This document shows, piece by piece, positions 1-33,531 of a stretch of 34,995 nt of DNA; within the stretch, counting starts at the first letter, position 1; each line of letters opens with the position of its first letter. Source of the stretch: Acidobacteriota bacterium (lineage in GTDB: Bacteria > Acidobacteriota > Thermoanaerobaculia > Gp7-AA8); assembly GCA_003223635.1 (NCBI GenBank), contig QHVS01000155.1, positions 502-35,496 on the forward strand, given 5' to 3'. The position numbers and the translations under genes are program-made. The notes below the pieces were generated by a model. The model did no database searches and had not been told where the DNA came from. It worked only from the letters and a program-made list of their open reading frames with translations.

Positions 1-1855
1 CCACTGAGGTCCAGGCCAGCCCTGTAGCCACGCCAACCTGATCGCGCTCCAGCAGCTCCTCGGCGAAATGTTTCATCGGCCCCAGGAACTTTTCGACGTT
101 CGCATCGGTAATGCGATAGGTCTTCTTTTCCTTTCCTTCCGCCACTTCGACGGCGATCTTGCGGCAGATCGTGCCGATCTCCCGCTCCAGATTGCGCAGG
201 CCGGCTTCCTTCGTGTAGCCGGTGGTGATCTTCATGATCCCGGAGTCGGTCCACACCACTTCCGTTTCCATGATCCCGTTCTCTTCCATCTGCTTGGGGA
301 TGAGGTGCTGCTTGGCGATGGAGAGCTTCTCCTCGTCGGTGTAGCCGGAGAGGCGAATGACTTCCATGCGGTCGAGGAAAGCGGGCTGAATGGTGTCCAG
401 CAGGTTGGCGGTGACGATGAACATCACGTTGGAGAGGTCATAGGCCACGCCGAGGTAGTGATCGCGGAAGGTGTGGTTCTGTTCGGGATCGAGAACCTCG
501 AGGAGAGCGGAGGATGGATCGCCGCGGTAGTCGGCGCCGATCTTGTCGACCTCGTCGAGCATGAAAACGGGATTCGAGGTCTGGGCCTGATTGATTCCCT
601 GGATGATGCGGCCGGGGAGCGCACCGACGTAGGTTCGGCGATGCCCGCGAATCTCCGCCTCGTCGCGCACTCCACCGAGGGAGATGCGGACGAACTTGCG
701 ATCGAGCGCGCGGGCAATGGAGCGTCCCAGCGATGTCTTGCCTACTCCGGGCGGGCCGACGAAGCAGAGGATCGGACCTTTCATCTTTGCGCCGCGCAGC
801 TTGCGCACGGCGAGATATTCGAGGATGCGCTCTTTGATCTTCTCCAGATCGTAGTGATCCTCGTCAAGGATCGTGCGGGCCCGGCTGAGTTCGAGATTGT
901 CCGCTGACATCACGCCCCAGGGAAGACCGGTCATCCAGTCGAGGTAGGTGCGAATGATCGACGTTTCCGCCGAATCGGGATGGGACCGCTCAAGGCGCTT
1001 GATCTGCTTTTCGATTTCCTCCCGCGCCTCCTGCGGGATCATCTTCTCCTCGATTTTCTTGCGATAGTTCTCGACCTCCTCGGTCAGCTCTTCCCCTTCG
1101 CCCAGCTCCGACTGAATCGCCTTGAGCTGTTGGCGGAGGAAGTACTCGCGCTGGCTTTTGTTCATCTCCCCTTGCGCGGCAGAGGAGATCTCCTGCTGCA
1201 TGGTGAGGAGGTTGATCTCGCGAGTGAGCAGCTCATTGACTTTCTTCAGCCGCTCCACCGGATCGATGGTCTCCAGGATCTGCTGCGCCTCTTCGAGCTT
1301 GAGGTCGAGGTTGGATGCCGCCAGGTCCGTCAGCCGCGCCGGATCGTCCAGATTCGCGGCGATGACCATCACTTCCGGCGAAATGTTCTTTCCCAGGCTG
1401 ACGGCGCGGTCGAGGTTCTGCTTGACCGCGCGGACCAGAGCCTCGATTTCCAGCGAGCGTTCTTTCGTCGCTGTCTCTTCGATGCGGGTGATCTTGGCCT
1501 TGAAAAACGGCGCGGTCTGGATGAAGTAATCAATGCGCGCTCGAGAGAGGCCCTGCACCAGGATGCGAATGCGCCCGTCGGGGAGCTTGAGCATGCGCAT
1601 GATGATGGCCACCGTGCCCACGCGGTAGAGATCGTCCTCGCCTGGATCTTCGTTCTGAAAATCCTTCTGCGCGGTGAGCATGATGACCCGGTTTTCGGCC
1701 AGGGCCTGGTCGACGGCGTTGATCGACTTTTCGCGCGACACGGACAGCGGAACGATGATGAAGGGGAAGATCACCAGGTCCTTCAGCGGCAGCACCGGAA
1801 GGACGTCCGGGATCTTGATCGCCTCTTCTTTCGCGGTTTCGTTCGCGTCCGTCAT
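1..1855 (-). CDS. lon: ATP-dependent protease La (Lon), C-terminal part off the left edge
   Basis: Reverse-strand translation begins MTDANETAKEEAIKIPDVLPVLPLKDLVIFPFIIVPL and contains the Walker A region GPPGVGKTSLGRSIARAL and LGGVRDEAEIRGHRRTYVGALPGRIIQ, characteristic of Lon. The reading frame runs off the window start. Confidence 0.97.
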   Translation of the reverse strand, partial: MTDANETAKEEAIKIPDVLPVLPLKDLVIFPFIIVPLSVSREKSINAVDQALAENRVIMLTAQKDFQNEDPGEDDLYRVGTVAIIMRMLKLPDGRIRILVQGLSRARIDYFIQTAPFFKAKITRIEETATKERSLEIEALVRAVKQNLDRAVSLGKNISPEVMVIAANLDDPARLTDLAASNLDLKLEEAQQILETIDPVERLKKVNELLTREINLLTMQQEISSAAQGEMNKSQREYFLRQQLKAIQSELGEGEELTEEVENYRKKIEEKMIPQEAREEIEKQIKRLERSHPDSAETSIIRTYLDWMTGLPWGVMSADNLELSRARTILDEDHYDLEKIKERILEYLAVRKLRGAKMKGPILCFVGPPGVGKTSLGRSIARALDRKFVRISLGGVRDEAEIRGHRRTYVGALPGRIIQGINQAQTSNPVFMLDEVDKIGADYRGDPSSALLEVLDPEQNHTFRDHYLGVAYDLSNVMFIVTANLLDTIQPAFLDRMEVIRLSGYTDEEKLSIAKQHLIPKQMEENGIMETEVVWTDSGIMKITTGYTKEAGLRNLEREIGTICRKIAVEVAEGKEKKTYRITDANVEKFLGPMKHFAEELLERDQVGVATGLAWTSV

Positions 1856-1932
1856 GTCATCCTCAGGTTGCGGGGGAGCTGCCGTCCACTCCTGCAACGG
1901 CTATTCCCGTATACCCTGCCTCGCGTCGTATA

Positions 1933-2931
1933 TCACGTTTCTTCCGCGCGGGTCTCCTCCCTCAGCTCGCGCCAGTTCAGCCCTTCGCGCAGAAAGAGAA
2001 TGATACCCGCCACAACCACGGGCGCCGTTCCAACGACATGAAACAGTACGGCGGCGGCGACCGAGCTGTCGATGTCGAACCCGTAAAACGTGGTCAGCAC
2101 GTACTGACATACTTTGTGGAAGCCACCCACTCCACCGGGCGTGGGGATGGCCACCGCAACTGCGGTGACTGCGCAAAGAAAGATCGTCGAGTCGAAGGGG
2201 AGGACTCTGCGCATGGCCAGCATCACGAACCAGAATTGCGTGACCAGGCAGACCCAGATGATGGCGGTGGACAGAAGGACCACGGCGAGCGCGCCGGGAT
2301 GCGTGCGGACCTGCAGGCTGTTGGCGAACGCATCGAAGAAGCGCATCCACGGCTCGCGGAAGCGCGCCGGGATCAGCTTGCCCAACCAGGCGTGCGCGCG
2401 ACGGACGGATTCGCGGTAAAAGTAAATGCCGAGGATGAAAAGAATCAACGCCGCCAGCAACGCTCCGGCGCTGAGCGCTCCGCCGTGCACGACCACATTG
2501 TCAAACTCGCGCCAGCGGTAAACGCAGAAAAAGAGGAAGAGCGCGAGGATGCTGATCAGGTCGAGGATGCGCTCCGTGAGCACCGGCCCCAGCGCATTGA
2601 CGAAACGCACGTCAGTGCGCCGAGCCAGCAGGGCGGGACGGGCCACATCGCCCGCCCGGATGGGCAGAACGGTGGAGAGCATGTAGCCGACGGTCGTGGC
2701 GAAGAACGTCGGATAGAACGGTGGCGGGCGGCGCGGGTCAATCAGGAGTCGCCAGCGGATGGCGCGAAAGACGAGCGCGGAAAAATTGACGAGCAGGCCG
2801 ACGGTGATCCACGCGCCGTTGGCCGATCGCATGATGGTCCAGACTTCGCTGAGGTTCGCCTTCCAGAGAAAGAGGGCCAGGAAAACAACGGTCAGAAGCG
2901 TGACCGAGGTGATCTGCAGAATGCGTCGCAC
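1933..2931 (-). CDS. YbhN/AglD-like flippase-domain (lysylphosphatidylglycerol synthase TM region family) membrane protein
   Basis: 332 aa polytopic protein with FRAIRWRLLI, ATTVGYMLSTVLPIRAGDVARPALLARR and PTPGGVGGFHKV motifs typical of the UPF0104 family. Confidence 0.88.
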   Translation of the reverse strand: MRRILQITSVTLLTVVFLALFLWKANLSEVWTIMRSANGAWITVGLLVNFSALVFRAIRWRLLIDPRRPPPFYPTFFATTVGYMLSTVLPIRAGDVARPALLARRTDVRFVNALGPVLTERILDLISILALFLFFCVYRWREFDNVVVHGGALSAGALLAALILFILGIYFYRESVRRAHAWLGKLIPARFREPWMRFFDAFANSLQVRTHPGALAVVLLSTAIIWVCLVTQFWFVMLAMRRVLPFDSTIFLCAVTAVAVAIPTPGGVGGFHKVCQYVLTTFYGFDIDSSVAAAVLFHVVGTAPVVVAGIILFLREGLNWRELREETRAEET

Positions 2932-2956
2932 GCTGTTGAGGGTTCTACCATATCGA

Positions 2957-3037
2957 GCTGTTAGCTCTTAGCTGTTAGCTCTTGGCTCGCAGGTGTATGG
3001 TTTTCCTAATAGCTAACAGCTAAGAGCTAAAAGCTTT
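2957..3037. repeat. Inverted repeat with arms made of 7-bp units (TTAGCTC-type / AGCTAAN)
   Basis: TTAGCTCTTAGCTGTTAGCT (2961-2980) is the exact reverse complement of AGCTAACAGCTAAGAGCTAA (3011-3030). Both arms are tandem 7-mers. Lies between divergent genes. Confidence 0.95.
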
Positions 3038-3043
3038 CACGCA

Positions 3044-3976
3044 ATGCTCTCCATCTACACGCATCCCATCTTCTACAAACACGACACCGGCATCGGTCAT
3101 CCGGAGAGCTCCGCGCGCATCGATGCGGCGATGGAGGGAGTGGACCGCGCTGGCTTTGCGGCGCGGACGCTGCGCGATGCGGCGCCGCACGCTGATACGG
3201 AGCGGATCATCGCCAAGGTGCATTCGGCGGACTACGAGCGCGAGCTGGATCAGGCCTGCCGGATGGGCCTGCGACTCTTTCACTCGCTCGACAACCCGAT
3301 CTCGTCGCAGACATTCGCCGCGGCGCGTGCCGCGGTGGCCACCGCCCTCACCGCCGCGGATGACATGCTGCGCCAGTCGCAGCGAGCGTTCGTCATCGCC
3401 CGCCCGCCCGGCCATCACGCCGAGCGGATTCAAGCCATGGGGTTCTGCTTCTTCAACACCATCGCCTGTGTCGCTGAATGGCTGCGCGAGCAGAACGGAA
3501 TCGAGCGCGTGTTCATCTTCGACTTCGACGTCCATCACGGCAACGGAACGCAACATCTCTTCGAAGAACGCGAGGATGTCTTCTACGCATCGATTCACCG
3601 CTATCCGTTCTATCCCGGGACGGGAGCGGCGAATGAGCTGGGCACGGGCGGCGGACGCGGATTCACGAAGAACATTCCCATGCCCGGCGGCACCGGGGAC
3701 GCGGACTACCTTCGCGCCGTCGAAGACGACATCGTGCGCATCATCGACGACTATCGCCCCGACGCAATCCTCTTATCGTCCGGCTTCGACGCGCACCGGC
3801 GCGATCCGCTGGGCGGGATGCGCGTCACCGAGAGGGCGTACGGCGAAATCACACGCCGCATCGTCGAAGTGGCGAATCGCCACGCCCACGGCCGCGTGCT
3901 CTCCCTGCTGGAAGGCGGATACGACATGGAGGGGTTGGCGGCGAGTGTCGACGAGCATGTACGCGCTCTGTCGTAA
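3044..3976 (+). CDS. Histone deacetylase-like/acetoin utilization family deacetylase
   Basis: HPIFYKHDTGIGHPESSAR, RPPGHHAERIQAMGFCFFN, FIFDFDVHHGNGTQHLF, LLSSGFDAHRRDPLGGM motifs. Confidence 0.95.
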   Translation: MLSIYTHPIFYKHDTGIGHPESSARIDAAMEGVDRAGFAARTLRDAAPHADTERIIAKVHSADYERELDQACRMGLRLFHSLDNPISSQTFAAARAAVATALTAADDMLRQSQRAFVIARPPGHHAERIQAMGFCFFNTIACVAEWLREQNGIERVFIFDFDVHHGNGTQHLFEEREDVFYASIHRYPFYPGTGAANELGTGGGRGFTKNIPMPGGTGDADYLRAVEDDIVRIIDDYRPDAILLSSGFDAHRRDPLGGMRVTERAYGEITRRIVEVANRHAHGRVLSLLEGGYDMEGLAASVDEHVRALS

Positions 3977-4417: not shown

Positions 4418-4470
4418 CGCCGGCTCCCAGCCGGCGGGTGCGCGGGCTACCAGCCCGCGCCGCAGGTTAC
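4413..4470. repeat. GC-rich multi-hairpin palindromic element at 3' ends of convergent genes
   Basis: CCGTAACGCCGGCTCCCAGCCGGCGGGTGCGCGGGCTACCAGCCCGCGCCG. The 32 bp at 4431-4462 are identical to 25589-25620. Confidence 0.9.
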
Positions 4471-15618: not shown

Positions 15619-16293
15619 ATGCGCGTGCGATTGGAGCACGTCACTCACATTTATCCGGCCACTGACGAATCTCCTCCCGTCCAGGTCCTCACCGACGTTT
15701 CTTTGGAGATCCGCTCCGGCGATTTCGTCGTGGTGATGGGCGCTTCGGGAAGCGGAAAGTCGACGCTGCTGAATCTGATCGGAGCCGTCGATCGCCCCAC
15801 CTCCGGCCGTCTGTTTCTCGGCGATCAGGAAACGTCGTCGCTCCCGGAGTCAGCGTTGACCATGCTGCGCAGGCAGTCGATCGGCTTCATCTTTCAATTC
15901 TTCAATCTGATCCCAACGCTGAACGTCTTCGAGAACGTCGCGTTCCCGCTTTCGTTGAATGGCAGGGGTCGCGGCGAGATCGACGGCCGTGTGCGCGAGG
16001 TGCTGGATCGCGTCGGCCTGCCGCACCGGGCCACACACTTTCCCGGTGAATTGGCCGGCGGCGAGATGCAGCGGGTGGCCATCGGGAGAGCGATCATCCA
16101 TCGGCCCTCGCTGATCCTCGCGGACGAGCCGACCGGGAATCTCGACTCGCGCAATGGTGAGATGGTCCTCGACCTGATCCGCTCCCTTCACGATGAGAGT
16201 GCAGCGACGGTCGTGATGGCTACGCATTCCGATCGCGCCGCCAGCCGCGGCGATTACATCATTCACATCGCCGATGGCCAGGTGACGCGTTGA
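15619..16293 (+). CDS. ABC transporter ATP-binding protein (LolD/MacB type)
   Basis: GASGSGKSTLLNLIG Walker A, LAGGEMQRVAIGRAIIHRPSLILADEPTGNLDS signature and Walker B. Confidence 0.97.
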   Translation: MRVRLEHVTHIYPATDESPPVQVLTDVSLEIRSGDFVVVMGASGSGKSTLLNLIGAVDRPTSGRLFLGDQETSSLPESALTMLRRQSIGFIFQFFNLIPTLNVFENVAFPLSLNGRGRGEIDGRVREVLDRVGLPHRATHFPGELAGGEMQRVAIGRAIIHRPSLILADEPTGNLDSRNGEMVLDLIRSLHDESAATVVMATHSDRAASRGDYIIHIADGQVTR

Positions 16294-18587
16294 GTCTGCT
16301 CCGGGCGCTGGTGCTCCGGCCGATGGTTCGGGAAAAGATCCGGACGACGTTGACCGTGCTGGGCATCGCCGTCGGCGTGGCTGTCGTCGTGGCCATCGCT
16401 CTTTCCAATCAGAGCGCGCTTCGCGCGTTTCGCGAGTCGGTGGATGCCGTCGCTGGGCGCGCGAATTACCAGATCGCCTCGGACGTCGGCATCGACGAGA
16501 ACCTGTTGATCGCCCTGCAGCCGCTCTGGTCCCGCGGTTTGCGCTTCGCGCCGGTGATCGATATCGACGGCATGGTGGAGGCCTCGCAGACTCCGATCCG
16601 CATCCTGGGCGTCGATCTGCTGAGCGACATTCACTTCCGCGACTACCGGTACGCCTCGATCCTCAGCGGGACGTCGGCTGGTGGGGCGCCGGCGCCCTCG
16701 CCGGCGCGCTATCTCGATCTTTTTCGCACCGACTCCATCATCGTCCCCGCCACCTTCGCCGCCGAGCACCGCCTCCGCCTCGGCTCCCCGCTCGCGCTGT
16801 CGGTCCTCGGGCACCAGACGACGATGATCGTGCGCGGCATCCTGGAGCCGCGCGGTCCGGCCACGGCTTTCAATGGCAGCATCGGAATCGTCGACATCGC
16901 TGCGGCACAAAGGCAGTTCGGAATGCTCGGGCAACTCACGCGCGTCGATCTGATCGTGCCAGGCGAAGAGGTCCGAAGCGCGATCGCTCGTCTTCTGCCG
17001 CCGAATGCGCGGCTGGAGCGGCCGTCGCGGCGAAACGAACGCGTGGAGAAAATGCTGCGCGCCTTTCGCGTGAATCTCTTCGCCCTGGCCGGCGTGGCTC
17101 TGCTGGTCGGCATGTTCCTCGTGTACAACACGGTGCTGATCTCGATTCTGCGCCGGCGCAAGGACGTCGGCGTGCTGATGACGCTCGGCGCGTCGCCCGG
17201 TCAGATCTTCGCTGCATTTCTTGCCGAGGGATTGCTGTTCGGCGCGGCGGGCTCGGTGATCGGAATCTTTCTCGGCGACGCGCTGGCGTTCTTGATCCTC
17301 CGCCTCATCGGCCGGACGATCAATGCGCTTTACGTGACATCAGAGCCGCAGGCCATCGTGCTCACACCGACGATCGCACTGGTCGGTGCCGCGGTGGGAA
17401 CGCTGCTGTCGCTGATCGCGGCGATTCAGCCGTCGGTGGAAGCGGCGCACGTTCGACCGAGTATTCTGATCCGCACCGGGCTTCAGCAGCGGGTCGGTCG
17501 CGCGCGCCGCAGCGTGCTCGCGATCAGCGCGGTTCTCTGCTTTGCCGCCGCCGCTGCAGTCTGCCGACTTCCGCCAGTCGATGGGATTTCCATCGCCGGT
17601 TACCTCGCCGTTCTGCTGGTCGTCGCTGGATTCTCGTTGCTCTCGCCGCTGATCGTGACTGTTGTCTCATCAGCTCTTCGGAAGCCGATGCGCGCCGCCT
17701 GGGGAATGGTCGGGCAGCTCGCATCCGCGTCGATTCCGGCGTCGCTGCGCCGGACATCGATCGCGTGCGCGGCGCTGGCCCTGGCCACCGGAATGATGGT
17801 GGCGGTCGCGCTGATGGTTGGGAGCTTCCGCGAAACGGTGCGGGTGTGGGTCGATCAGACCGTGAGTTCCGACCTCTGGCTGCGTCCCGCGAAAGGATTG
17901 TCCAATGCCGACATTGCCCTCTTCCCCGCTTCGATCGTCGACGATTTGCGGCGCGTGCCATTCATCGCCGCCGTCGATCCGATACGAGGACGGGATGTGA
18001 CCTACGGCGACAGCATCATCGCCGTCGGCAGCGGGGACTTCGATGTCGTGGGACGCTACGGCAATCTCCCGATGGTGACGCCACGATCGTCGCAGCCGGC
18101 CCTGCAGGACGCCCTTCGGCGAAAAGGCGTGTTCGTCTCCGAGAGCTTCGCCCTCAAGTTTCATAAACGTGTCGGCGACAGCGTCGAACTTCCCACTACT
18201 CGCGGCGTGGAGCGGTTCCCGATCACCGGTGTCTATCGCGATTACTCAAACGACCGCGGCGTGGTGGTCATGGATCGAGGCCTGTTCATCCGGGCCTTCC
18301 AGGACGACAAGATCAACACCGTCGTTCTCTACCTGAAAAAAGGAGTCGCTCCGGAAGAGGCTCGAAAAAAGCTGGAGGCGGCGTTCGGGCCGAAGTATCA
18401 CGCCTTCGCCGTGTTGAATCGCGAGATCCGAGCCGAGGTGATGAAGATTTTCGATCAGACGTTCGTGATCACGTACGCGCTGCTCGCGGTGGCGGTGATC
18501 GTCGCCGTGCTGGGAATCGTGAACACGCTCGCCGCGCTCATTCTGGAGCGCAGTCGCGAGCTGGCGCTCTTGCGGATTGCCGCATGA
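16290..18587 (+). CDS. FtsX-like ABC transporter permease, truncated before the last TM helices
   Basis: MacB_PCD-like N-terminus, FtsX segments RRRKDVGVLMTLGASPGQIFAAFLAEGLLFG; ends abruptly at ERSRELALLRIAA* where the family continues. TTG start overlaps the ATPase stop. Confidence 0.9.
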   Translation: MSLLRALVLRPMVREKIRTTLTVLGIAVGVAVVVAIALSNQSALRAFRESVDAVAGRANYQIASDVGIDENLLIALQPLWSRGLRFAPVIDIDGMVEASQTPIRILGVDLLSDIHFRDYRYASILSGTSAGGAPAPSPARYLDLFRTDSIIVPATFAAEHRLRLGSPLALSVLGHQTTMIVRGILEPRGPATAFNGSIGIVDIAAAQRQFGMLGQLTRVDLIVPGEEVRSAIARLLPPNARLERPSRRNERVEKMLRAFRVNLFALAGVALLVGMFLVYNTVLISILRRRKDVGVLMTLGASPGQIFAAFLAEGLLFGAAGSVIGIFLGDALAFLILRLIGRTINALYVTSEPQAIVLTPTIALVGAAVGTLLSLIAAIQPSVEAAHVRPSILIRTGLQQRVGRARRSVLAISAVLCFAAAAAVCRLPPVDGISIAGYLAVLLVVAGFSLLSPLIVTVVSSALRKPMRAAWGMVGQLASASIPASLRRTSIACAALALATGMMVAVALMVGSFRETVRVWVDQTVSSDLWLRPAKGLSNADIALFPASIVDDLRRVPFIAAVDPIRGRDVTYGDSIIAVGSGDFDVVGRYGNLPMVTPRSSQPALQDALRRKGVFVSESFALKFHKRVGDSVELPTTRGVERFPITGVYRDYSNDRGVVVMDRGLFIRAFQDDKINTVVLYLKKGVAPEEARKKLEAAFGPKYHAFAVLNREIRAEVMKIFDQTFVITYALLAVAVIVAVLGIVNTLAALILERSRELALLRIAA
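16680..16706 (+). repeat. 27-bp palindromic motif inside the FtsX coding sequence (copy of 27999-28025)
   Basis: GGTGGGGCGCCGGCGCCCTCGCCGGCG; 25/27 identical to the reverse complement of 27999-28025. Confidence 0.8.
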
Positions 18588-20199: not shown

Positions 20200-20246
20200 C
20201 GCCGCCAACTTGGCGGCGGGTCCGCCGGCAACCTGCCGGCGTTACG
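20195..20246. repeat. GC-rich double-hairpin palindromic element between convergent stops
   Basis: CCGTAACGCCGCCAACTTGGCGGCGGGTCCGCCGGCAACCTGCCGGCGTTACGG: two hairpins in an outer CCGTAACGCCG / CGGCGTTACGG inverted repeat; both stop codons lie inside it. Confidence 0.95.
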
Positions 20247-25568: not shown

Positions 25569-25581
25569 CCTGGAGCGCTGG

Positions 25582-25678
25582 CGACCCGCCGGCGGGTGCG
25601 CGGGCTACCAGCCCGCGCCGGCAAGTTGCCGGCGCACCCGCCGCCAAGTTGGCGGCGGTCCCAAGGGGTGGGCGGCCC
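25582..25678. repeat. String of GC-rich hairpins in a divergent intergenic region
   Basis: CCGGCGGGTGCGCGGGCTACCAGCCCGCGCCG (identical to 4431-4462), GCCGGCAAGTTGCCGGC, GCCGCCAAGTTGGCGGC, AAGGGG...CCCCTT. Confidence 0.92.
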
Positions 25679-25696: not shown

Positions 25697-26203
25697 ATGG
25701 CTCCCCAGGTGATCATCCCGGAGGTCATCGAGCCCGATGAGAAGCTGCCGCGCGATCTGGTCGCGCTGCGCCGGTTCGCCTTTCTGTTGGACGAGGCGGT
25801 AGCGATTCCCGGCACGACGCGACGAATCGGCCTGGACGGCGCGATCGGACTCATCCCCGGCGTGGGGGATGTCATCGGCGCGCTGCTCTCGACGTGGATC
25901 ATCATCGGCGCGCTCCGCCATCGCGTTCCGCTGCTGAAGGTAACGCGCATGGTGGTAAACGTTCTGGCCGATATGGTGATTGGAGAAGTCCCGGTGATCG
26001 GAGACATCTTCGATTTCCTGTTCGAAGAGAACGTGATGAATCTGCAGTTGCTGCTTCGCTATCGCGACCGCTCGCGGCCACCGCGTTCGTTCGCTTCCAT
26101 CGCCGTCAGCGCGCTTCTGCTCACGTGTTTCATCCTCGCCGTCGCCCTCACCTTTCTAGGCCTGACCATCGCCGCCGTTTTGTGGCTGGCCGGACAACGC
26201 TGA
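25697..26203 (+). CDS. DUF4112 domain membrane protein
   Basis: LLDEAVAIPGTTRRIGLDGAIGLIPGVGDVIGALLSTWIIIGALRHRVPLLKVTRMVVNVLADMVIGEVPVIGDIFDFLF. Confidence 0.94.
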   Translation: MAPQVIIPEVIEPDEKLPRDLVALRRFAFLLDEAVAIPGTTRRIGLDGAIGLIPGVGDVIGALLSTWIIIGALRHRVPLLKVTRMVVNVLADMVIGEVPVIGDIFDFLFEENVMNLQLLLRYRDRSRPPRSFASIAVSALLLTCFILAVALTFLGLTIAAVLWLAGQR

Positions 26204-27459
26204 TGCTCTTTCGAAAGCGCAAGCAGCCTCGCTATCCCCGGCGCCCGCCGCTGCCGATCATCCGGCGCCGGCTTCCGATGCGCTATCAGATGAAGCATCA
26301 GTTCGGGGTGCGCGATCTGGCCTTTCTGCAGACCATGCACGCGCTGACCGGCGCGCCGCTCTCGGAAGGCAATCACGTGACCATCCTCAAGAACGGGGTG
26401 GAGATCTTCCCGCCGATGCTGGCCGCCATTCGCGCGGCGAAAAAGACCATCAACCTGGAGTTCTACATTTACTGGGATGGGGAGATCGGCCGCGCCTTCG
26501 CCGAAGCGCTTGCGGAGCGCGCCCGGGCAGGCGTGCAGGTGAAGGTCATTCTTGATGCGGTCGGCTCCGCGCCGATGTCACGATCGCTCATAGACTTCAT
26601 GACCCGAAACGGAATCGATCTGGAGTGGTATCACCCCCTGCGCTGGTACACGCTCTCGCGATTCAACCATCGCACACATCGGAAGCTCCTCATCGTCGAT
26701 GGCGAGGTCGGCTTCTCCGGCGGTGTGGGCATCGCCGACAACTGGCTGGGCAACGCCGATTCCAAGGATCACTGGCGCGAAACTGTGGCCGGGGTTGAGG
26801 GACCGGTCGTCACACAGATGCAGTTCGCCTTCCTGGACAACTGGGTGAAGAGCCGCGGCGAGCTGCTCACTGGGCTCGATTACTTTCCGCAGGTGGAGCG
26901 GCGCGGACCGCATCTCACGCAGGTGATCAAGTCATCCCCGACTGAGGGAAGCTCCGCCGTGAAGCTGCTGTACATCGTCTCCATCGTCAGCGCCACGCAC
27001 TCGATCTACATCAGCAACGCCTACTTCGTCCCCGACCGCGACACGATTCGCGCGCTGGAAGGCGCGGTGCGGCGCGGAGTCGACGTGCGGGTCATTGTCC
27101 CCGGCGAATTCACCGACGTTCCGCTGGTCCGGCAGGCCAGCCGCATGCACTACGAGCTGCTCCTCCGCCGCGGCATCCGCATCTTCGAATATCAGCCCAC
27201 CATGATGCACGCCAAGACCATGGTGGTGGACGGCTACTGGTCGACCATCGGCTCCTCGAACTTCGACGATCGCAGCTTCCGCATCAACGACGAAGTCAAC
27301 GTCAACGTCTACGACGATGAAATCGCCCGGCAGATGGAGGCGATGTTCTTCCACGACCTGGCGCAATCGAACGAGATCACGCTGCGGCACTGGTTCCGTC
27401 GCCCGCGCCTGGCGAGGGTGAAGGAGAAGCTGGCGGATCTCTTGAAGCCGCAGTTGTAG
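26203..27459 (+). CDS. Cardiolipin synthase/phospholipase D family protein
   Basis: Two HKD motifs: NHRTHRKLLIVDGEVGFSGGVG and MMHAKTMVVDGYWSTIGSSNFDDRS. ATG at 26203 overlaps the DUF4112 stop. Confidence 0.95.
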   Translation: MLFRKRKQPRYPRRPPLPIIRRRLPMRYQMKHQFGVRDLAFLQTMHALTGAPLSEGNHVTILKNGVEIFPPMLAAIRAAKKTINLEFYIYWDGEIGRAFAEALAERARAGVQVKVILDAVGSAPMSRSLIDFMTRNGIDLEWYHPLRWYTLSRFNHRTHRKLLIVDGEVGFSGGVGIADNWLGNADSKDHWRETVAGVEGPVVTQMQFAFLDNWVKSRGELLTGLDYFPQVERRGPHLTQVIKSSPTEGSSAVKLLYIVSIVSATHSIYISNAYFVPDRDTIRALEGAVRRGVDVRVIVPGEFTDVPLVRQASRMHYELLLRRGIRIFEYQPTMMHAKTMVVDGYWSTIGSSNFDDRSFRINDEVNVNVYDDEIARQMEAMFFHDLAQSNEITLRHWFRRPRLARVKEKLADLLKPQL

Positions 27460-27509
27460 GTGGAGCGGCGGGCTTTAGCCCGCCGGCGGCCTGAAGGCCG
27501 TCGCTCCAC
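27460..27509. repeat. 50-bp palindromic element filling the whole cls-gnd intergenic gap
   Basis: GTGGAGCGGCGGGCTTTAGCCCGCCGGCGGCCTGAAGGCCGTCGCTCCAC: outer stem GTGGAGCG/CGCTCCAC plus two internal hairpins; second copy at 32646-32699. Confidence 0.97.
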
Positions 27510-28931
27510 TCACATATGCGCCCAGTCCGTGTGCAGGAACGGCGCGTTCGGTCCCTTGTCGTTCCGCTGATACGTGTGCGCGCCGAAATAGTCGCGCTGC
27601 GCCTGAGTCAGATTCTGAGGAAGCTCGGCGCTGCGATACGCATCGAAATAGGCCAGGCTGGCGGACATCGCCGGCACGGCAATCCCGCTGGACTGGGCGA
27701 GTGAAATGGCGCGCCGCCACGCCACCTGTGAATCGCGGACGCGCGCGCTGAACTCTTCGTCCAGCAGGAGATTCGGAAGCTGCGGCTTGCGCTCGTAGGC
27801 GCGCATGATCGAGTCGAGGAACTTCGCGCGGATGATGCAGCCGGCCTTCCAGATGCGGGCCATCTCGCGCATGTTGATGTTCCACTTCCACTCCGCGGAT
27901 CCGGCCTGAATGAGAGCCATACCCTGCGCGTAGGAGCAGATCTTCGATGCGTACAACGCGTCGTGAACGTCCTGGATGAATTGTTTGCGATCGAATTTCG
28001 CCGCCGAGGGCGGCGGCGCCCCACCGAGCACTTTGCTGGCGGCCATGCGCTCTTCTTTCATGCTGGAGAGCACGCGCGCGTCGATCGCCGCGGCGATCGT
28101 GGGAATGGCCACGGCAAGATCGAGCGCCACCTGCGCGGTCCATTTGCCTGTCCCCTTCTGTCCCGCCTTGTCCAGCACCTTGTCCAGGAGAGGCGCGCCC
28201 GTTTCCGGATCCTTCACTCGGAAGATCCGGGCGGTGATCTCGATGAGGAACGACTCCAGCGGGCCGCGGTTCCACTGCTCGAAAATCTCCGCCAGCTCGC
28301 TGGCCTTCGCCCCCATCACCCTTCGCAGCATCTCGTACGCCTCGGCGATCAGCTCCATGTCGCCGTACTCGATCCCGTTGTGCACCATCTTCACGTAGTG
28401 ACCGGCACCATCCGGCCCCACGTGCGTGACACACGGGCCGGAGTCGCTTTTCGCGGCGATCGCTTCGAACACCGGCTGAATCGTCTTCCACGACTCCACC
28501 GATCCGCCGGGCATCAGCGAGGGACCGTGGCGCGCTCCCTCCTCGCCGCCGGAGACGCCGGAGCCGACGAAGTGAAAGCCTTTCGCTTCTACCCGCTTCG
28601 CGCGCTCCTGAGTGTCCTTGAACCAGGAGTTGCCACCGTCGATCAGGACGTCGCCGCGGTCGAGAAAGGGCATGATCTTCTCGATGGTTTGATCGACGGG
28701 CGAGCCGGCCTTGATCATCATCATGATTCGGCGCGGCCGCTCGATCGCTTTCGTGAAGTCTTGAAACGTCTTCGTCCCGGTGATTTTCTTTCCGCGGTTT
28801 TTCGTGACGAACTCGTCGACCTTCTCGGAATCCAGGTTCCACACTGCGACGGGAAAACCGTGCTCCTCGATGTTGAGGGCGAGGTTCTCCCCCATCACAC
28901 CCAGGCCGATCATGCCGAACTTCGCGGTCAT
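27510..28931 (-). CDS. gnd: 6-phosphogluconate dehydrogenase, decarboxylating
   Basis: MTAKFGMIGLGVMGENLALNIEEHGF, FVGSGVSGGEEGARHGPSLMPGG, VGPDGAGHYVKMVHNGIEYGDMELIAEAY, QAQRDYFGAHTYQR. Confidence 0.98.
   Translation of the reverse strand: MTAKFGMIGLGVMGENLALNIEEHGFPVAVWNLDSEKVDEFVTKNRGKKITGTKTFQDFTKAIERPRRIMMMIKAGSPVDQTIEKIMPFLDRGDVLIDGGNSWFKDTQERAKRVEAKGFHFVGSGVSGGEEGARHGPSLMPGGSVESWKTIQPVFEAIAAKSDSGPCVTHVGPDGAGHYVKMVHNGIEYGDMELIAEAYEMLRRVMGAKASELAEIFEQWNRGPLESFLIEITARIFRVKDPETGAPLLDKVLDKAGQKGTGKWTAQVALDLAVAIPTIAAAIDARVLSSMKEERMAASKVLGGAPPPSAAKFDRKQFIQDVHDALYASKICSYAQGMALIQAGSAEWKWNINMREMARIWKAGCIIRAKFLDSIMRAYERKPQLPNLLLDEEFSARVRDSQVAWRRAISLAQSSGIAVPAMSASLAYFDAYRSAELPQNLTQAQRDYFGAHTYQRNDKGPNAPFLHTDWAHM
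27999..28025 (-). repeat. 27-bp palindromic motif inside the gnd coding sequence (copy of 16680-16706)
   Basis: Minus strand GGTGGGGCGCCGCCGCCCTCGGCGGCG, encodes GGAPPPSAA. Confidence 0.8.
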
Positions 28932-32511: not shown

Positions 32512-33531
32512 CTAAGTGAAGAACTTTTTCAGCGATTTGAAAAGGAGAATCACGCCGCTCACCAATCCGATGAGGGCTCCGACGAAGAGACCGGCGCATC
32601 CTCCGAGGATCAGGTTGAGTCCGCCGCCGCGTTTCGCCGGCTCCGGTGGAGCGGCGGGCTTTAGCCTGCTGGCCGGCGGCCTGAAGGCCGCCGCTCCACG
32701 ACTCCCCTGCGTCCGCGCATACACCTTCGTGAACTCCGCGCCCAAGAAGACAATGTTCGTCGACCAGTAGATCCAAACCAGCACTACGACCAGCGATCCC
32801 GCCGCTCCGAAGCTCGATCCCACTGCGCTCTTTCCGATGTACAGCCCCAGCGCGAATTTGCCGACGATGAAAAGAAAGGAGGTGAATGCTGCGCCGAGCC
32901 GGACGTCCCGCCACTCGATGCGGATGTCCGGCAGGTAGCGGAAGATCAAGGCGAACAGCGCGGTCACTACGGCGAACGAGACGGCGAGCTGCAGGCTTTG
33001 CCACAGCGACTCGCCGCCGGGCAGCCGGTTCCCGGCGAACTTCCCCATCGCGGCGATCGCTGCGTCGATCACCAGCGAGACCAGCAGAAGGAATCCGACA
33101 CCGAAGACCATGGCGAAGGAGAGGAATCGTTCCCTGATCATGGCCAGGACGCCGCCTTTCGGCTTCTCCTCGACGTTCCAGATCGTGTTCAACGCATCTT
33201 TCAGAGCGCCGAAGACGCCGGCGGCACCGAGGAGCAGCGTCACGATTCCGATGACCAGCGCGAACGTTCCCGTCTTCGGTTTCGCTGCGCCGGCCAGCAT
33301 CTCCGCGATGGCCTTGGCCCCCGCGTCGCCCATCAACGCCCGAAGCTGATCGACGATCTGCGCCTGGGCGTGGGATCTTCCGAAGATCAGTCCAGCGATC
33401 GCGATGGCGATCAGCAGCAGCGGGGCGATGGAGAAAATCGTGTAATAGGCCAGCGCCGCGCCGAGGCGCAGCGCCTTGTCTCGCTGGAATTCTGCAAAAG
33501 CCTCTTTGAGGAGCTGAAAGAACGGCTTCAC
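32512..33531 (-). CDS. YihY/BrkB-family membrane protein (second in the window)
   Basis: MKPFFQLLKEAFAEFQRDKALRLGAALAYYTIFSIAPLLLIAIAIAGLIFG...GSLVVVLVWIYWSTNIVFLGAEFTKVYA. Confidence 0.95.
   Translation of the reverse strand: MKPFFQLLKEAFAEFQRDKALRLGAALAYYTIFSIAPLLLIAIAIAGLIFGRSHAQAQIVDQLRALMGDAGAKAIAEMLAGAAKPKTGTFALVIGIVTLLLGAAGVFGALKDALNTIWNVEEKPKGGVLAMIRERFLSFAMVFGVGFLLLVSLVIDAAIAAMGKFAGNRLPGGESLWQSLQLAVSFAVVTALFALIFRYLPDIRIEWRDVRLGAAFTSFLFIVGKFALGLYIGKSAVGSSFGAAGSLVVVLVWIYWSTNIVFLGAEFTKVYARTQGSRGAAAFRPPASRLKPAAPPEPAKRGGGLNLILGGCAGLFVGALIGLVSGVILLFKSLKKFFT
32646..32699 (-). repeat. 54-bp copy of the 27460-27509 palindromic element inside the YihY CDS
   Basis: GTGGAGCGGCGGGCTTTAGCCTGCTGGCCGGCGGCCTGAAGGCCGCCGCTCCAC; translated in the CDS as part of SRGAAAFRPPASRLKPAAPPEP. 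Confidence 0.95.

Follow-up and report, generated by a model that had tools for sequence, protein, structure and literature searches.

A REPIN-like inverted hairpin pair predicted to be read in frame within YihY and other conserved proteins of an acidobacterial genome

The locus was analysed within a window, that is, a stretch of 34,995 nt from an Acidobacteriota bacterium of the class Thermoanaerobaculia (assembly GCA_003223635.1, contig QHVS01000155.1, positions 502 to 35,496 of the forward strand). The minus strand of the window carries a gene for a YihY/BrkB-family inner-membrane protein of 339 amino acids (32512..33531), and this gene contains, before the C-terminal helix, a 54-nt element (32646..32699, plus strand; 79 bits against the covariance model described below) that is a REP pair, here called type A. 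Its sequence runs GTGGAGC GGCGGGC TTTA GCCTGCT GGCC GGCGGCC TGAA GGCCGCC GCTCCAC, with an outer stem (32646-32652/32693-32699) enclosing a first hairpin with the loop TTTA (32653-32670), a GGCC spacer (32671-32674) and a second hairpin with the loop TGAA (32675-32692). As single-stranded DNA it was calculated to fold with -25.3 kcal/mol (z = -6.07). A 50-nt copy, GTGGAGC GGCGGGC TTTA GCCCGCC GGCGGCC TGAA GGCCGTC GCTCCAC, lies on the plus strand at 27460..27509 and also matched the model with 79 bits. It is placed between two convergent genes, a cardiolipin synthase-like ORF with PLDc domains (cls; 25894..27459, plus strand) and gnd, encoding 6-phosphogluconate dehydrogenase (27510..28931, minus strand). 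The stop codons of both genes (TAG at 27457-27459 for cls, 27510-27512 for gnd) abut the element, so that it makes up the whole of the intergenic gap, as the first-pass annotation had stated. The true start of cls is probably further downstream than called.

That annotation had also described the two sequences as same-strand copies of a single palindrome that differ by a 4-nt length change. A gapped alignment bore this out and added two substitutions. When each half-element was searched for across the window with up to three mismatches, only 32646-32699 and 27460-27509 were found, where shuffled sequences would give 0.00, and a scan of the window with Rfam 15 returned no matches at the gathering score. 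A further double-hairpin family (CGCCGGC...GCGCGGGCTACCAGCCCGC) is present at 4418-4462, 20200-20244 and 25576-25661 of the window, the last of these holding two units.

The product of the ORF at 32512-33531 was assigned to the Virul_fac_BrkB/YihY family (Pfam PF03631, E = 6.6e-51), with the domain covering residues 17-273. The 54-nt copy encodes residues 278-296 on the minus strand and is read GSRGAAAFRPPASRLKPAAPPEP, past the end of the domain, and the earlier reading of the element as translated in frame in a linker after the YihY core was therefore right. Beyond the element the C-terminal segment remains in frame and is homologous with the orthologues, which within the family are 57-69% identical. 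At the position of the linker these relatives carry unrelated sequence, variable in length and content. The precise 18-codon gap that had been expected in an alignment of YihY orthologues did not appear, since the linker is variable and since the nearest orthologue, from the related genome G014, has its own 54-nt copy, which is in the opposite orientation. In an AF2 model of YihY, which was modest (mean pLDDT 66, 16 sequences), residues 279-311, including the element segment, had pLDDT values below 50; the linker that holds the element is disordered in this AlphaFold prediction, and an insertion that added about 18 residues to it would probably be close to neutral.

The assemblies used are drafts, that of the window (genome G000) comprising 3.73 Mb in 395 contigs. 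A covariance model was built from 23 copies and used to search G000, where 70 places were found at E <= 0.01 and 44 at a score of at least 60 bits. The further copies that the first-pass annotation had proposed to look for genome-wide thus exist, about 44 of them strong. The stems covary, with five base pairs changed on both sides, a number reached by 1 of 500 shuffles, while slid structures gave 0-1 pairs. The general plan of type A is GTGGAGC - GGCGGGC TTTA GCCCGCC - [0-4 nt] - GGCGGCC TGAA GGCCGCC - GCTCCAC. Another family, related to the first and termed type B (GTGTGxGGGCCGGCTTTAGCCGGCC...CACAC), accounted for much of the rest of the model matches. Its copies, 46-50 nt long, were also seen to read through called genes, for example that for BshC, with lengths not divisible by three (L191 2501-2546; L192 2501-2546; L182 1429-1478; L187 2501-2550).

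The exact core pattern was found in 3 of the 149 genomes of the class, with 23 occurrences in G000, 35 in G014 and 1 in G006, and a reversed-core control over the same 149 genomes gave 0. G014 and G006 belong to one genus, sister to that of G000, and all three to the same family; on this sequence survey the narrow and patchy spread looks as it would for a mobile repeat. The element occupies 55 places in G014 and 44-70 in G000. The copy number of REPs is often quoted as >100, and both counts are lower. Type A copies are mainly extragenic and near gene 3′ ends, as REPs are, 29 of the 41 in G000 being outside gene interiors, and relatives lacked the element at nearly all orthologous sites compared.

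Nearly all copies are made of two hairpins in inverted orientation, separated by 0-4 nt or, in rare cases, by a longer spacer, which is the inverted pair of a REPIN. The single stem-loop has the GTAG-like foot of a REP: the G014 consensus is GT-GTAG-CGGCGGGC-TTTA-GCCCGCCG, and the foot is canonical GTAG (GTGTAGC) in G014 and mostly GGAG (GTGGAGC), a degenerate form, in G000. Genes for Y1 transposases (PF01797, RAYT superfamily) were present in 17 of 18 family genomes. On contig C182 of G014 (L104), a RAYT gene is bounded by both half-elements, in the order GTGTAGCGGCGGGCTTTAGCCCGCCG RAYT CGGCGGCCTAAAGGCCGCCGCTACAC over about 0.56 kb, so that in G014 the repeat flanks a RAYT gene, as expected of a REP. 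This RAYT scored 94 bits against the NCBIfam model REP_Tyr_transpos (NF047646, cut-off 80) and is apparently frameshifted near its N terminus. At the same locus one terminus of the RAYT element is entered by the reading frame of an acyltransferase-like ORF (L104 32-1498; GGLKPAA...), and the opposite terminus gives the neighbouring frame a TAG stop (GTG TAG).

In the G000 assembly, where the RAYTs of contigs C69 and C307 were checked, none was flanked by type A ends. The C69 RAYT is 53% identical to that of G014 and also scored above the REP_Tyr_transpos cut-off, and its different terminal repeat (GTGGGGCGCCGGCG...) rules it out as the direct source; the C307 RAYT had no terminal repeat. With the G014 RAYT apparently frameshifted and the terminal repeats of the C69 RAYT different, no active source was observed. 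Two places in the window, 16680-16706 and 27999-28025, resemble the terminal repeat (GTGGGGCGCCGGCGCCCTCGCCGGCG) of the C69 RAYT (L047 1366-1944). The first is in the ORF 16290-18587 and the second in gnd, where it is read LGGAPPPSAAKF, and both may represent single, gene-internal REPs belonging to a third family.

The flanks of 112 copies were analysed for traces of insertion. Direct flank repeats of 1-6 nt were not above shuffled expectation in these copies, and no target or flank motif was found over their 224 ends. The lack of a target-site duplication among the 112 copies speaks against a classical MITE moved by a DDE transposase. Transposition of the IS200/IS605 type goes via single-stranded DNA and leaves no target-site duplication, so that flanks of this kind are what single-strand transposition would be expected to give. 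The short element itself resembles both ends of a RAYT element brought together, 0-4 nt apart.

The copies inside genes were studied with gene calls from a simple codon-usage caller trained on G000, a copy being counted as internal if it was at least 90 nt from the gene start and at least 60 nt from the gene end. By this measure 12 type A copies of G000 are inside called genes. Nine type A sites are flanked on both sides by homology to family orthologues: two in the DNA polymerase DnaE and one each in the E2 subunit of pyruvate dehydrogenase (PDH), CarB, a polyprenyl/farnesyl diphosphate synthase, the chaperone ClpA, an MFS transporter, PheT and YihY. Internal calls beyond these nine come from the codon-usage caller alone and are provisional. 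The claim that real, conserved proteins include in-frame translations of a palindromic element found genome-wide is thus borne out, as a prediction from sequence, at nine homology-flanked sites. Most relatives have variable, unrelated linkers without the element at the nine host sites, indicating that it sits in loops that tolerate change; the same linkers are too variable for net insertion to be measured.

Several single loci are also worth recording. About half an element is present in the UvrD gene of G000, and in G014 the matching linker of UvrD has a long insert of another kind, which may be a decayed copy (L200 2501-2553 and L272). The polyprenyl synthase of G014 (L256) is missing ~14 residues (ADLEG...FIHRN) around the site of the G000 element. 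A 50-nt copy (L177 2501-2550) is within a fused gene (1722-3152), between the carboxyltransferase domains CT_C_D and CT_A_B, and looks as if two neighbouring genes were joined by the element.

It could be argued that the YihY linker is ordinary GC-rich sequence for Ala, Pro and Lys that only looks palindromic, especially as the linkers of relatives are Ala/Pro/Lys-rich and of similar length. However, shuffled windows are expected to hold zero matches, and the 79-bit match, the fold z value of -6.07 and the 44 strong copies genome-wide make this hardly credible, the genome-wide copies being enough to refute it. The lengths and frames of the internal copies bear on a different proposal, namely that these are a specialised coding lineage, a protein-compatible 54-nt form, with a length that is a multiple of three and one open frame for the bland peptide GAAGFSPPxGGLKAAAP, that spreads by insertion into genes. 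In G000, 8 of 12 internal copies are 54 or 63 nt long, compared with a length divisible by three in 2 of 29 copies outside genes (Fisher p = 1.9e-4), and in G000 and G014 together the second codon position is where all 16 internal copies with a length divisible by three start. Copies of 54 nt are then read xGAAGFSPPxGGLKAAAP one way and xGAAAFRPPxGGLKPAAP the other, or as close variants. For one of the orientations the frame used is the only one free of stops; for the other, a second frame is also open. Note, however, that in G014 lengths divisible by three were found for 8 of 16 internal copies and 9 of 33 outside (p = 0.11), and that 54-nt copies occur outside genes there too, while its internal copies have many lengths. 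The earlier idea of a length rule modulo three was therefore upheld in G000 and did not reach significance in G014, and the rule is not general; at lengths of 50, 52 or 53 nt, which some internal copies have, the frame must be compensated in another way. Substitutions in internal copies, moreover, preserve the stems and not the peptide (for example GACGGGC/GCCCGTC in ClpA), and this speaks against the peptide itself being under selection. Survivor bias gives the same pattern of length and frame and is enough to explain it, and a dedicated coding lineage is considered improbable.

The history of the internal copies is a separate matter, since G014 has copies in the same YihY, ClpA and MFS linkers as G000. 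One interpretation is that each of these sites goes back to a single old insertion in the common ancestor of the two genera, followed by flipping or conversion and by loss in G006. This would account for the use of the same linker in all three genes, for the right junction in MFS, which is identical in the two genomes (with some upstream sequence lacking in G014), and for that in YihY, which is alignable. However, the G014 copies are opposite in orientation to those of G000 in YihY and MFS, two of the three shared sites, the ClpA junctions are shifted by 3 nt, and the ClpA and MFS linkers of G006, whose genus is that of G014, are ordinary, so that common descent is plausible and yet somewhat short of an even chance. 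It could instead be that the element was delivered recurrently to the same few linkers in different lineages, which is thought rather unlikely; if true, RAYT insertion with a strict frame filter would supply housekeeping proteins with 18-residue linker peptides in a repeatable way.

Taken together, the element is very probably a non-autonomous REPIN moved in trans by a RAYT, its copies inside genes being survivors filtered by frame and by the tolerance of the linker. For such a REPIN, we infer mobilisation by a RAYT of the G014 type, a single-strand mechanism and survival by neutral filtering. A RAYT acting in trans would move the element, most likely as single-stranded DNA in the manner of IS200/IS605; insertions that broke genes would be lost, and copies would persist next to the ends of genes, or within them if the host protein has a flexible linker and the frame stays free of stops.

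Neither the type A family nor its in-frame copies were found to be reported in the part of the literature covered, and the family and its hosts look undescribed, although gene-internal REP pairs have already been published for other species. REPs are defined as extragenic, and Rickettsia palindromic elements (RPEs), reportedly described by Ogata et al. in 2000 and 2002, have mostly been treated as an oddity of Rickettsia without a known mobiliser. The type A family joins both: its ends also bound a RAYT, and DnaE, CarB, ClpA, PheT and YihY contain copies in frame that most relatives lack at these sites. The origin and tolerance of protein-coding palindromes thereby become testable. It is also a warning that several essential proteins of this lineage contain about 18 residues of mobile-DNA origin.

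The closest published case is that of the GTAG-tagged REP dimers, some of which are wholly inside ORFs, where they encode 20-30 residues (Di Nocera et al. 2013, PMC3733652). Their hosts include DNA replication and repair genes, tRNA synthetases and UvrD, other dimers are mostly near gene 3′ ends, and the dimers are RAYT-associated; for Acidobacteria the same work lists TIR-associated transposases and not GTAG REPs (PMC3733652). Type A resembles these dimers in its two inverted stem-loops, GTAG-like feet, in-gene copies and association with a RAYT, and differs from them in stem sequence and hosts and in a tag that is often GGAG or GTGG. The REPINs of P. fluorescens SBW25 are mobile inverted REP pairs with alternative hairpin and clover folds, for which RAYT-dependent mobility was proposed, and have longer spacers, with 71 bp between the 16-mers of the GI doublet (PMC3116915). 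Type A is likewise an inverted REP pair, with the same kind of alternative folds and a RAYT-dependent mobility proposed for it as well, but its spacer is 0-4 nt and many of its copies are in coding frame.

Classical RPEs are about 105-150 bp long and are tolerated in frame inside conserved proteins, and no mobilising enzyme for them was identified in the reports concerned (PMC2229807, PMC10969869). No report of a RAYT link for RPEs was found in the literature covered. Type A is also in frame inside conserved proteins and absent from the same site in most relatives, whereas at 50-54 nt it is shorter than a classical RPE, and a close relative, G014, has a RAYT gene between these same ends. The resemblance to RPEs raised in the first-pass annotation thus holds in effect, in that copies are in frame and tolerated, but not in kind, given the REP/REPIN structure and a RAYT bounded by half-elements: judged by sequence, the element would act like an RPE and belong, by structure and RAYT association, with the REPs and REPINs.
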